Origin: Lysobacterales bacterium
GTDB taxonomy: Bacteria > Pseudomonadota > Gammaproteobacteria > Xanthomonadales > Marinicellaceae
Length of the DNA: 64,000 nucleotides
Reading direction: 5' to 3'
NCBI GenBank assembly: GCA_027067055.1
Contig: JAMOMK010000088.1
Coordinates: 1 to 64,000, forward strand
Under the pieces are notes generated by a model. It did no database searches, was not told the origin of the DNA, and was given only the letters and a program-made list of their open reading frames with translations. The position numbers were made by a program, and so were the translations under genes. Positions 36,069-41,452 of the stretch are shown one piece after another. Numbering within the stretch: position 1 is the stretch's first letter; the number at the start of each line of letters is the position of its first letter.

Positions 36069-36551
36069 ATGGAGAAATTGTCAAAAAGAGTTAAATTGCG
36101 GTTAAAGTATTACGATTACTCGCAAAATGGATTATATTTCATCACAATTTGCCAAAAAGATATGCTATGTCTTTTCGGATCAATATCTAATGATTTGATG
36201 AAATTGAATAATGCAGGTAAAATGATTAGAAACCAATGGAATCAAATAATACAAAGATTTCCTGCTTTAAATTTGCACGAGTTTGTGATTATGCCCAACC
36301 ATTTTCATGTTATTTTTGAGTTACATAATTCATCAATAGCACTATCTGAAATTATTGGTGCATTCAAATCAGTAACCACCAATGAGTATATCAAAGGAGT
36401 AAAGCAATACAATTGGAAAAGGTTTGATAAACAATTATGGCAAAGAAGCTTTTATGATAAAATCATTCGCAATGATGATTTTCATCAAAAAGTAATAGAA
36501 TACATCAACTATAATCCAGCAAAATGGTGTGATGACAAATATTATAAGTAG
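36069..36551 (+). CDS. REP-associated tyrosine transposase (RAYT, IS200-like)
   Basis: A 160-residue Y1 transposase of the TnpA-REP type. The metal-binding HUH motif is in VIMPNHFHVIFEL, and the catalytic tyrosine is probably in QRSFYDKIIRNDDFHQKVIEYI. The N-terminus GLYFITICQKD is typical of the family. RAYTs cut and move REP palindromes. It sits exactly between two REP pairs, has a good AAGGAG site, and its own stop codon TAG is the TAG of the right-hand REP's GTAG. Confidence 0.93.
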   Translation: MEKLSKRVKLRLKYYDYSQNGLYFITICQKDMLCLFGSISNDLMKLNNAGKMIRNQWNQIIQRFPALNLHEFVIMPNHFHVIFELHNSSIALSEIIGAFKSVTTNEYIKGVKQYNWKRFDKQLWQRSFYDKIIRNDDFHQKVIEYINYNPAKWCDDKYYK

Positions 36552-39391: not shown

Positions 39392-40192
39392 ATGAAAAAT
39401 TTCTCAATGTATAAAACCATCACAGTTGATACCGATAAACAAGGTGTCAGCTATGTGACTATGGCTCGTCCTGAAGTGCATAATGCTTTTAATGCACAGA
39501 TGATTAATGAATTAACTACAGCATTTGATGCGTTAGCTAAAAACCCTGATACCAAAGTGATTGTGTTGCAATCTGATGGTGAATCCTTTTCAGCGGGTGC
39601 TGATATTAATTGGATGAAGGATATGGTTAAGGCAACTCAGGCAGAAAACCAAGAAGATTCCTTAAAACTGGCAGCATTAATGCGTGCTATTAACTTTTGC
39701 GATAAATCTGTTATAGCAAAAGTACAAGGTTTAGCATTGGGTGGTGGTGTTGGTCTTATTGCCTGTTGTGATATTGTTATTGCCAATGAACAAGCAAGAT
39801 TCGGTTTAACCGAAGCCAAACTAGGACTGGTACCTGCTGTTATTTCCCCTTATGTGGTTGACGCCATTTCGGCACGTCATTGTCGACGATATTTTCAGAC
39901 TGCAGAAATATTTAGCGCACAAAAAGGCTATGAAATGGGTTTGTTATCCGAAATTTGCCCGATTGAAGAAATAGATGAATTGGTAGCTAGACAAATAAAA
40001 TTTTTACTCTCAACGGGGCCAAGTGCAAAATTGATTAGCAAAAAACTCGTACATTCGGTTGTCTCTCGCACCATTCCGCAACAGAAAAAACTGGACAACT
40101 ACACGACTCAAGTCATTGCCTCTGTGCGTGTGTCACCAGAAGGACAACATGGGTTGAAATCATTTTTGGATAAGAAAAAACCGAAGTGGTAG
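39392..40192 (+). CDS. liuC: Methylglutaconyl-CoA hydratase (enoyl-CoA hydratase family)
   Basis: Hydrates 3-methylglutaconyl-CoA after the carboxylase step of leucine degradation. The 266-residue crotonase fold has MARPEVHNAFNAQMI, the oxyanion-hole residues in SFSAGADINWMKDM and ALGGGVGLIACCDIVIA, and TEAKLGLVPAVISPYV, which match LiuC of Pseudomonas more closely than general hydratases. The end SFLDKKKPKW is also typical. Its stop abuts the repeat-bounded unit with the four-helix-bundle gene. Confidence 0.85.
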   Translation: MKNFSMYKTITVDTDKQGVSYVTMARPEVHNAFNAQMINELTTAFDALAKNPDTKVIVLQSDGESFSAGADINWMKDMVKATQAENQEDSLKLAALMRAINFCDKSVIAKVQGLALGGGVGLIACCDIVIANEQARFGLTEAKLGLVPAVISPYVVDAISARHCRRYFQTAEIFSAQKGYEMGLLSEICPIEEIDELVARQIKFLLSTGPSAKLISKKLVHSVVSRTIPQQKKLDNYTTQVIASVRVSPEGQHGLKSFLDKKKPKW

Positions 40193-40194
40193 GA

Positions 40195-40253
40195 TTAGGC
40201 ATCAGGTTTCAGGTGTTAGGTATCAGGTGTTAGGTATCAGGTGTTAGGTATTA
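40195..40253. repeat. 14-bp tandem repeat containing a terminal inverted repeat
   Basis: About three and a half units of TTAGGTATCAGGTG, the first varied as TTAGGCATCAGGTTTCAGGTG. Its first 21 bases (40195-40215) match in inverted form the sequence at 40636-40656 at 19 of 21 positions, so the array forms the left end of a 462-bp unit. Confidence 0.75.
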
Positions 40254-40281
40254 AGAGATGATTTTTTGGAGATGGATTATT

Positions 40282-40629
40282 ATGAGTTATAGGGATTTAG
40301 AAGTTTGGAAAAGGTCTTTGAATTTAAGTGTTTCGATTTATAGAAATTTATCATCATTAACTGATTTCGGATTCAAGAGTCAGATAACACGATCAAGTTT
40401 ATCAGTTCCATCCAATATAGCAGAAGGTTATGGTAGAGAATCAAACAAAGAATTCATTAGATTTTTATACATTGCTAAAGGTTCATGCAGTGAACTTGAG
40501 ACACAAATAATGATAGGCCAGAAAATCGAATTCATACACCCAAAGCTTGCAGACAAATGGCTCAAAGAAGCAGAAGAATTATCTGCTATGCTAGGAGGAT
40601 TGATTCAAACAAGAAAAACATTCACCTGA
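40282..40629 (+). CDS. Four-helix-bundle protein (23S rRNA intervening-sequence type)
   Basis: A 115-residue all-helical protein of PF05635: YRDLEVWKRSLNLSVSIYRN, then SQITRSSLSVPSNIAEGYGRES, FIRFLYIAKGSCSELETQI and a final helix. The SVPSNIAEG motif is diagnostic. The ATG at 40282 is preferred (GGAG 10 bases upstream) over 40258. Its stop codon TGA lies within the downstream repeat (CACCTGAAA). The family was first found in intervening sequences of 23S rRNA and is related to the Avd protein of diversity-generating retroelements. Here it lies alone between inverted repeats. Confidence 0.9.
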   Translation: MSYRDLEVWKRSLNLSVSIYRNLSSLTDFGFKSQITRSSLSVPSNIAEGYGRESNKEFIRFLYIAKGSCSELETQIMIGQKIEFIHPKLADKWLKEAEELSAMLGGLIQTRKTFT

Positions 40630-40656
40630 AACATTCACCTGAAACCTGAAACCTAA
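40623..40656. repeat. Right inverted repeat of the four-helix-bundle unit
   Basis: CACCTGAAAC-type repeats ending CTGAAACCTGAAACCTAA. On the minus strand it begins TTAGGTTTCAGGTTTCAGGT, pairing with 40195-40215. Confidence 0.75.
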
Positions 40657-40775
40657 GTTATTTTAAACTTTTTATTGATTTTAATGTCTTTAATCCCTAT
40701 ATAATTTAAACTAAAAGATAATTTCTCTCATCATACGTCATTCACTAGTCTATAAAAAGTGTAACGCATATGGCA

Positions 40776-40802
40776 GTAGATTCCCACTTTCGCGGGAATG
40801 AC
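40776..40802. repeat. REP-like palindrome, family 2 (inverted copy)
   Basis: GTAGATTCCCACTTTCGCGG followed by GAATGAC; on the minus strand it reads GTCATTCCCGCGAAAGTGGG, then AATC. Same family as 33566-33589. Confidence 0.6.
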
Positions 40803-40846
40803 GAGATGGGCGTTATAACTAAAAACCTAATTACTTGAGATTTATT

Positions 40847-41452
40847 ATGAAAAAAATACTAGCCTTATTATTACTATGTACTGGACTAACCGCATTTGCC
40901 GCACCTGTTTTGATTAAAATGGAAACCAACCGTGGCGATATTGTGCTTGAATTGTATGCTGATAAAGCGCCACTTTCTGTTGCTAACTTTGTTCAGTATG
41001 TAAAAGAAGGCTATTATGATGGCACAATTTTCCACCGTGTTATCAGCACTTTTATGATTCAAGGGGGTGGTTTTGATGAAGATTTAGTGCGTAAAATCAC
41101 ACGTGATCCTATTAAAAACGAGGCATCAAATGGTTTGAAAAATTTGCGCGGTACTATCGCTATGGCACGGTTACCTTCACCTCATTCAGCAACGGGGCAG
41201 TTTTTTATTAATGTACAAGATAATCCTTCTCTAGATTTTACTAGTGAAGATAATGGCCGTACATGGGGATATGCTGTATTTGGAAAGGTTGTTCAAGGAT
41301 TGGATGTTGTTGATGAAATTCGTTTTACACAGACAGGGCCTAATCCTCCATTTCCTAGTGATGTACCAATCAAGACAATGTTAATTAAAAAAGTATCAGT
41401 TATTGATAAAATGCCTGAAGCAAAAAAAGTTGAAGACCAGCCAGTAAAGTAA
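40847..41452 (+). CDS. Periplasmic peptidyl-prolyl cis-trans isomerase (cyclophilin)
   Basis: A 201-residue cyclophilin with a signal peptide (KKILALLLLCTGLTAFA). The core TNRGDIVLELYADKAPLSVANFVQYVKEGYYDGTIFHRVISTFMIQGGGF matches PpiA/PpiB, with the catalytic arginine in FHRV, and ATGQFFINVQDN follows. It helps fold proteins in the periplasm. ATG 40847 is preferred over an upstream TTG because the signal peptide begins there. lpxH starts one base after its stop. Confidence 0.92.
   Translation: MKKILALLLLCTGLTAFAAPVLIKMETNRGDIVLELYADKAPLSVANFVQYVKEGYYDGTIFHRVISTFMIQGGGFDEDLVRKITRDPIKNEASNGLKNLRGTIAMARLPSPHSATGQFFINVQDNPSLDFTSEDNGRTWGYAVFGKVVQGLDVVDEIRFTQTGPNPPFPSDVPIKTMLIKKVSVIDKMPEAKKVEDQPVK

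Follow-up and report, generated by a model that had tools for sequence, protein, structure and literature searches.

Inverted arrays of a 7-bp word frame an S23 four-helix-bundle gene behind liuC and suggest a REPIN-like system without a known transposase

Introduction

What kind of unit is a small S23 gene that lies between inverted repeats, directly behind the stop codon of liuC, in a Lysobacterales genome? The S23/four-helix-bundle family is common and has had solved structures since 2006, and we know of no function for it. In RAYT/REPIN systems, a short repeat lies on both sides of a kept protein gene, and copies of that repeat without the gene, often as inverted pairs, are spread between genes in numbers of up to hundreds. 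The locus is part of a stretch of 64,000 nucleotides (the window; contig JAMOMK010000088.1) for which an earlier reading of the sequence, here called the original prediction, had proposed a small mobile element that has no transposase of its own.

Results

The element in the window is an S23 gene between inverted arrays of a 7-bp unit

The features of the locus are listed in Table 1. Its two ends pair as the original prediction had described: the repeat finder placed 21-nt arms at 40195-40215 and 40636-40656, 420 nt apart and 90% complementary (19/21), and the local alignment score of the two ends (15) was matched by 1/2000 dinucleotide shuffles. The element starts 2 bp past the liuC stop, and the S23 stop codon (40627-40629) is inside the right repeat region, both also as predicted. 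The 14-bp tandem copies that had been set beside the terminal repeat are likewise present (40194, 40208, and 40222; repeat finder), but terminal repeat and tandem copies prove to be a single array with a 7-bp unit. The left array reads, in order, TTAGGCA TCAGGTT TCAGGTG TTAGGTA TCAGGTG TTAGGTA TCAGGTG TTAGGTA, one of the eight units having the form YYAGGCN instead of YYAGGTN. The right array, reverse-complemented, reads TTAGGTT TCAGGTT TCAGGTG and then AATGTT TCAGGTG, and it contains two copies of the 13-bp repeat AAACATTCACCTG. The ends of the element are thus better read as the edges of inverted 7-bp arrays than as a 21-bp terminal repeat plus a 14-bp array, and we rejected a fixed 21-bp repeat because the unit number and the variants of the arrays vary among the copies of the element in other species of the genus.

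Table 1. Coordinates of the element and its surroundings in the window
Feature	Coordinates	Strand	Evidence
Whole element	40195..40656	+	Filled versus empty liuC-ppi junctions across the genus
Left array: 8 units, 7 bp each, consensus YYAGGTN	40195..40250	+	Sequence; repeat finder; genus array-site search versus reversed-pattern control
S23/four-helix-bundle gene, 115 aa	40282..40629	+	PF05635 and TIGR02436 above cutoff; AlphaFold2 model; structure matches
Right array, inverted: 3 clear units and 2 irregular	40616..40656	-	Sequence; repeat finder
liuC-type enoyl-CoA hydratase, upstream neighbor	39392..40192	+	ORF list; name taken from the original prediction
Presumed peptidylprolyl isomerase-like gene (ppi), downstream neighbor	40850..41452	+	ORF list (listed ORF starts at 40835)
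RAYT-like Y1 transposase, 4 kb before the element	36069-36551		NF047646, 80.5 bits (cutoff, 80)

The gene is intact from its ATG to its stop, with a longer frame that starts at 40258, and it is the only content of the element, as had been proposed: PF05635 was the sole match up to an E value of 1 in the profile search, which yielded no transposase. A promoter and terminator scan of 40100-40900 found nothing. The transcript of the element, for which folding had been suggested as a check, is predicted to fold better than shuffled sequences (z, -3.28). An S23 gene between terminal inverted repeats is also the anatomy of a 23S rRNA intervening sequence; the site here is not inside a 23S rRNA gene, and it lies between two protein genes, liuC and one that we presume to be peptidylprolyl isomerase-like.

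The placement of the protein in the family that 23S rRNA intervening sequences encode, and its structural kinship with Avd, were borne out by profile and structure matches. It scored 121 bits against PF05635 (cutoff, 33.8) and 120 bits against TIGR02436 (cutoff, 24), and 15.4 bits against the Avd profile, below the cutoff of 80. The AlphaFold2 model (pLDDT, 95.3) had its best structure matches in 2gsc (XCC0516, an S23 protein of X. campestris) and 2rld (BT_0352) and was less close to Avd (TM about 0.79 to 4dwl and 8ub7). Profile searches of the protein found no known catalytic domain. The solved relative is described as a pentameric ring (PMC4990558), and the title of 8ub7 makes Avd, which shares the fold, part of a retroelement reverse-transcriptase particle. 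Such a ring might plausibly read several 7-nt units.

Between the element and ppi, at ~40777-40810, lies the palindromic stretch GATTCCCACTTTCGCGGGAATGACGAG. Since it has short matches at many places across the genus, we regard it as a dispersed REP-like repeat, perhaps one that belongs to the nearby RAYT.

The junction is filled in some species and empty in others

With the liuC-ppi region as the query, all 11 genomes of the genus gave a match, and the junction was judged in nine species (G004 and G007 are not among them). Four carry the element there: the source genome G000; G008, where the contig ends inside the copy; G006; and G010, where the copy is divided between two contigs with another inserted repeat at their ends. 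At the empty junctions of the other five (G005, G001, G009, G002, and G003), liuC and ppi lie on one contig with about 100-160 bp between the reading frames and without an S23 gene. The S23 gene is frame-shifted in G006 and broken by another insertion in G010. The G006 element has AAATTTA, an AT-rich and nearly palindromic heptamer, on both sides; the empty junctions have diverged too far to reveal a target-site duplication. By synonymous distance, the S23 genes of G000 and G008 are closer than their liuC genes, while those of G000 and G006 are more distant than liuC; the history of the site is therefore not one simple insertion.

The insert in the G010 S23 gene (L007 and L016) has the ends CCCAAATCCCGATATAGAA, the inverted form of which occurs in the source genome near contig C114 (L003), making it another dispersed repeat of the genus. 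At L003 itself (G000:C114:8772-9062), an Avd-like gene lies between repeated stretches (reading FWSSSPIA) and reverse-transcriptase-like sequence; judged by this sequence content, the region is likely a diversity-generating retroelement.

Neither a DNA search nor a family search turned up the element twice in the source genome; the other family match there is the Avd-like gene, which we rejected as a second copy. The S23 gene is single-copy, and mobility is therefore not supported by copy number. The original prediction of a small mobile element thus holds insofar as the unit is discrete, lacks a transposase, and is absent from 5/9 judged junctions, but it lacks the second gene copy. Further copies were found of the repeat alone. 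A three-unit pattern had 29 matches in the genus compared with 2 for the reversed pattern; 11 were in the source genome, 7 within the element and 4 at three gene-less places (contigs C104, C32, and C23). Repeat copies thus exist elsewhere, and the gene is not at a fixed place in all relatives, the two points on which the original prediction could have failed. At the C104 place (near 125,650), two inverted arrays make up a hairpin without a gene, which follows a presumably cytochrome b561-like gene. G006 has a hairpin of this type at the matching place, with changed units. By eye, there was a short remnant in G010, a short AGG-rich stretch nearby in G002, and nothing alike in G001, G003, and G009; the G005 stretch could not be placed. 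The dispersed gene-less arrays of the window element are thus limited to a few places, and other S23 genes in the genus have other flanking heptamers (TTGAAAA/TGGAAAG in G005, AATTACT-like in G004).

Heptamer arrays flank S23 genes across bacterial phyla

PF05635 was present in 77/369 genomes of the class Gammaproteobacteria. The flanks of 96 class loci were scored for periodicity, with at least 18/21 identity at a given lag as the threshold. Lag 7 reached it in 32 upstream and 28 downstream flanks and lag 14 in 25 and 16, while each of the other lags from 2 to 20 did so in 0-2 flanks. A further 80 named loci, which form an independent sample (Bacteroidota, Verrucomicrobiota, Planctomycetota, Cyanobacteria, Clostridia, Acidobacteria, and others), gave upstream/downstream numbers of 17/22 at lag 7, 20/21 at lag 14, 2/7 at lag 8, 2/4 at lag 16, and at most 2 elsewhere. 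Control flanks taken 680-900 bp off gave 3/159 and 2/146, compared with 60/168 and 39/159 near the gene. Other periods do occur: lags 8 and 16 passed the threshold in 9 and 6 multi-phylum flanks, and by eye the flanks of some S23 genes (L174, L205, L169, and L242) show arrays with a different period, for instance 8.

The two arrays of a locus belong together. After removal of 10/96 class loci that were Avd-like or weak, of 5 more with short flanks, and of 1/80 multi-phylum loci, the left array matched its own right array in inverted form above the 95th percentile of mismatched pairs in 65/81 class loci and 58/79 multi-phylum loci; direct-orientation matches were this strong in 16/81 and 12/79, and a clear inverted match was absent from 16/81 and 21/79. 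The words vary from one S23 gene to another within a single genome (G094), so the word is a property of the element rather than of the host. Among the 64/81 loci with a clear inverted match that were used, protein identity correlated with array similarity (rho, 0.213; 0/500 permutations), also for pairs below 60% identity (0.166; 0/500), and weakly for pairs below 50% identity after removal of GC content (0.067; 12/500). Arrays had a mode of 4 and a median of 5 units (n = 189), in a count that by construction begins at 4, and G exceeded C on the inward strand in 159/189.

The family also turned up in other settings. One 1.5-Mb genome of the class (G335) has 11 PF05635 matches, of which ten are weak and resemble one another; L146 and L147, the two examined, are without heptamer arrays. 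We rejected phage carriage, as tblastn found no S23 match among 50,697 phage records. Matches were found in 22 plasmid records, mostly cyanobacterial. The flanks of five plasmid loci, viewed by eye, contain heptamer arrays in L319, L321, and L322, a longer period in L323, and an irregular pattern in L324. L320, on a second plasmid of the strain of L319, shares the gene neighborhood of L319, as compared in length and overall identity. In L322, from a Nostoc edaphicum plasmid, the S23 gene has core genes as neighbors and lies between two ribonucleotide reductase genes.

Dispersed arrays follow the XCC0516-type S23 gene in Xanthomonadales

Thirty S23 loci of the XCC0516 type (L249-L278), belonging to two families, are without exception situated between the core genes accB and accC, which were recognised by motifs. 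Their flanks carry the word GGGAAT or GGGATT, nearly always in four units at the left end, with an inner boundary such as GNAANAGCGGCC, and the genes of this lineage are under purifying selection (median dN/dS, 0.18; 32 pairs). Association with dispersed arrays was tested in 253/398 genomes, those of Xanthomonadales families f2 and f3, which were chosen after inspection of the data because the arrays occur there; the 145 genomes outside the test include three S23-positive ones, G395 (89 matches), G404 (6), and G438 (8). XCC0516-type S23 was defined by E values up to 1e-30. Dispersed arrays were counted as matches of a 20-base pattern (a three-unit array), so that one long array counts several times, and the counts were transferred by hand into this test and the RAYT test described below.

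At least 10 dispersed GGGAWT matches were present in 55/61 genomes with XCC0516-type S23, 13/45 with other, more distant S23, and 20/147 without S23, with medians of 114, 1, and 0. Within 17 genera (164 genomes), none of 5,000 permutations gave an association as strong. Exceptions run both ways: 6/61 genomes with the XCC0516-type gene have fewer than 10 matches, and the 20/147 genomes with at least 10 matches and no detected S23 reach up to 221 (G382). The variant in the S23 flanks, AAT or ATT as assigned by eye, predicted the commoner dispersed variant (15 versus 15 genomes; P = 4e-5).

To view how the dispersed arrays are built, we took four complete genomes of a single genus and 200 kb around the S23 gene in each. 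Arrays clustered at 11, 10, 5, and 11 places, a count that includes the place of the S23 gene itself; a reversed-sequence control, which found 1, 3, 0, and 7 arrays, is weak because a long array still half-matches the loose unit when reversed. Both orientations occur at 12 gene-less places, and all 12 run plus then minus, like the S23 element itself; 7 of them have 27-55 bp between the arrays. The S23 ends and the dispersed arrays have the inner boundary GNAANAGCGG in common; among the dispersed arrays, a motif for it, written after examples had been seen, occurred at 29/50 inner edges, 8/50 outer edges, and 12/50 in the reversed control. Most array places are common to these four related genomes, with differing unit numbers and variants. 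We saw no movement and found no fresh insertion with a target duplication.

A scan without a preset word, covering 200 kb in each of six genomes whose S23 words are different, yielded 15 lag-7 arrays in three genomes, for 11 of which the genome's own S23 arrays were the best match, and no dispersed arrays in the other three. In G259, a genome with two S23 genes, a GGTGAAA array is paired with an inverted GTGAATA array twice within 200 kb (G259:C1:348122-348522, L367, and 497129-497383, L374).

A RAYT transposase is a poor candidate for the mover

The arrays might be moved in trans by a RAYT (Y1 REP transposase) such as the one encoded 4 kb from the element, and REP-like palindromes do occur inside some arrays. 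We surveyed 79 genomes of six genera, 71 of which have a RAYT hit. Within genera, RAYT presence showed no association with array number (P = 0.41) and RAYT count a weak one (P = 0.097), against 0/5000 permutations for S23. Eight genomes lack a RAYT hit, yet four of them have 103, 67, 32, and 32 array matches, and 17 of the 71 with a hit have none. We therefore rejected RAYT as the mover, a reading that we now consider very hard to sustain. Because RAYT does not follow the arrays and S23 does, the S23 protein is taken as the trans-acting part.

Discussion

Our preferred reading, to which we assign a probability of roughly 0.55, is that the S23 element works as a REPIN-like system, its heptamer-array ends being acted on by a four-helix-bundle pentamer instead of a known transposase. 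The strongest evidence for such a trans system, as opposed to a simple small transposon, is that dispersed gene-less arrays follow S23 across genomes. S23 elements would then form a widespread family, each a four-helix-bundle gene between inverted arrays of a lineage-specific 7-bp word, with the arrays serving both as element ends and as recognition sites of their own S23 protein. The protein would act in trans on gene-less arrays and inverted array pairs. Where the gene is kept, arrays with the same word and inner boundary would be copied to, or kept at, many intergenic places; where it is lost, they would be few or fading. The pair would work like RAYT and REPIN, with a small helical-bundle nucleic-acid-binding protein in place of the Y1 transposase, so that strand cutting and copying would have to come from a host enzyme. 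S23 genes inside 23S rRNA would be elements of this build that landed there and are tolerated because RNase III cuts the stem. The sequence data directly show the layout and its breadth, words particular to each element, left ends that match right ends, and dispersed arrays that go with the gene within genera and carry its word; that the pentamer binds the word, acts in trans, and mobilizes arrays with a host enzyme is inferred. Counting against this reading are the exceptions in both directions (20 array-bearing genomes with no S23 gene detected, six the other way round), the three of six scanned genomes that show no dispersed arrays, the lack of observed movement, the single-copy gene of the window, and a protein in which profile searches found no catalytic domain.

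The strongest rival, which we still judge unlikely, makes S23 a regulator that binds intergenic or 3' untranslated arrays in RNA or DNA and controls termination or RNA stability, the arrays being kept by selection as binding sites and not as selfish copies. It would suit the position of most arrays between genes and a short distance past the upstream gene (Rehm et al. 2015, PMC4692102, and the 2-bp distance from liuC here), the largely conserved array places of related genomes, the purifying selection on a gene kept between accB and accC, and the predicted fold of the window transcript. Array number nevertheless ranges from 0 to hundreds inside genera, shared places show turnover in the length and variants of their arrays, and the S23 gene of most loci is flanked by inverted arrays whose geometry the gene-less pairs copy; all of these count against a regulator, which has no need of them.

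Less probable again is an ordinary element of the intervening-sequence type, a selfish RNA-level unit whose stem of inverted ends is cut by RNase III and whose protein is dispensable. The gene between terminal inverted repeats matches that anatomy, the Coxiella case has strain-variable GACAGAT heptamers before S23 and is cut by RNase III (PMC4990558), and the gene is broken in G006 and G010. Against this, the window element is intergenic and lies outside rRNA, purifying selection acts on the protein of the acc lineage, and arrays that follow the gene are unexpected if the protein is dispensable. Replication slippage alone, with S23 genes merely settling in arrays as targets, would explain the change of unit numbers between related genomes. 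It leaves the near absence of lags besides 7 and its multiple (save a few of 8 and 16), the inverted pairs with their constant plus-then-minus order, and the correspondence of arrays with the gene and its word without a reason, and we consider it very improbable, though a little less so than RAYT as the mover.

A wider reading is more tentative than the REPIN-like one, and we would put it at somewhat less than even odds: S23 genes may supply the trans-acting component for repeats with inverted heptamer-array ends, a class that would be very widespread. They would be the cause of heptameric "simple sequence repeats" in the genomes of many bacteria (Xanthomonas, probably Nostoc, and others), and the 23S rRNA intervening sequences may be members of the class that landed in rRNA. 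If so, this would be a class of mobile elements without any known transposase; if S23 moves the arrays, a REPIN-like system would be run by a protein without a known catalytic fold. The finding joins two puzzles, the role of the S23 family and the overrepresented intergenic heptamers of bacteria, through a link that can be tested: the 7-bp word of an element should be recognised by the S23 protein of that element, and removal of S23 should alter the fate of the arrays. In the open-access literature, we recognised no paper that links S23 genes to heptamer arrays generally; an earlier account in the subscription literature is possible. TAACTGA heptamer repeats without a known cause are described from Beggiatoaceae, cyanobacteria, and Bacteroidetes (PMC4679880), and 18 genes of the S23 family are noted in cas loci (PMC3936711).

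Close in anatomy are the 23S rRNA intervening sequences with an S23 (IVP) frame of Coxiella and Leptospira, which, as here, combine a PF05635-type gene with terminal inverted repeats. The Coxiella sequence measures 428 nt, compared with 462 bp here, and carries its GACAGAT heptamers before the S23 gene (PMC4990558). Unlike these rRNA-borne sequences, the window element is intergenic, and heptamer arrays at both ends with dispersed copies are not part of the Coxiella account in PMC4990558, as far as that account goes. Avd of diversity-generating retroelements has a similar fold; the window protein falls below the Avd profile cutoff, however, and its element holds no other gene.

The dispersed GGGAWT arrays are the GGGAATC repeats left unexplained by Rehm et al. 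2015 (PMC4692102). That paper reports GGGAATC at 186 places in X. campestris, mostly with four units, with 70 convergent inverted pairs (75 for GGGGATT in Nostoc), at a mean of 28 nt from the 5'-side neighboring ORF and with no leading- or lagging-strand preference. Word, four-unit majority, convergent pairs, and position close behind a gene are thus shared with the arrays of XCC0516-type S23. Rehm et al. treated the heptamers as G-quadruplex formers, and the terms "S23" and "helix bundle" are absent from their main text. The likeness to RAYT/REPIN lies in the dispersed gene-less inverted pairs that follow the gene, for XCC0516-type S23 in Xanthomonadales; the difference is that S23 is a four-helix bundle without a Y1 (HUH) domain and that its repeat is a 7-bp tandem array.
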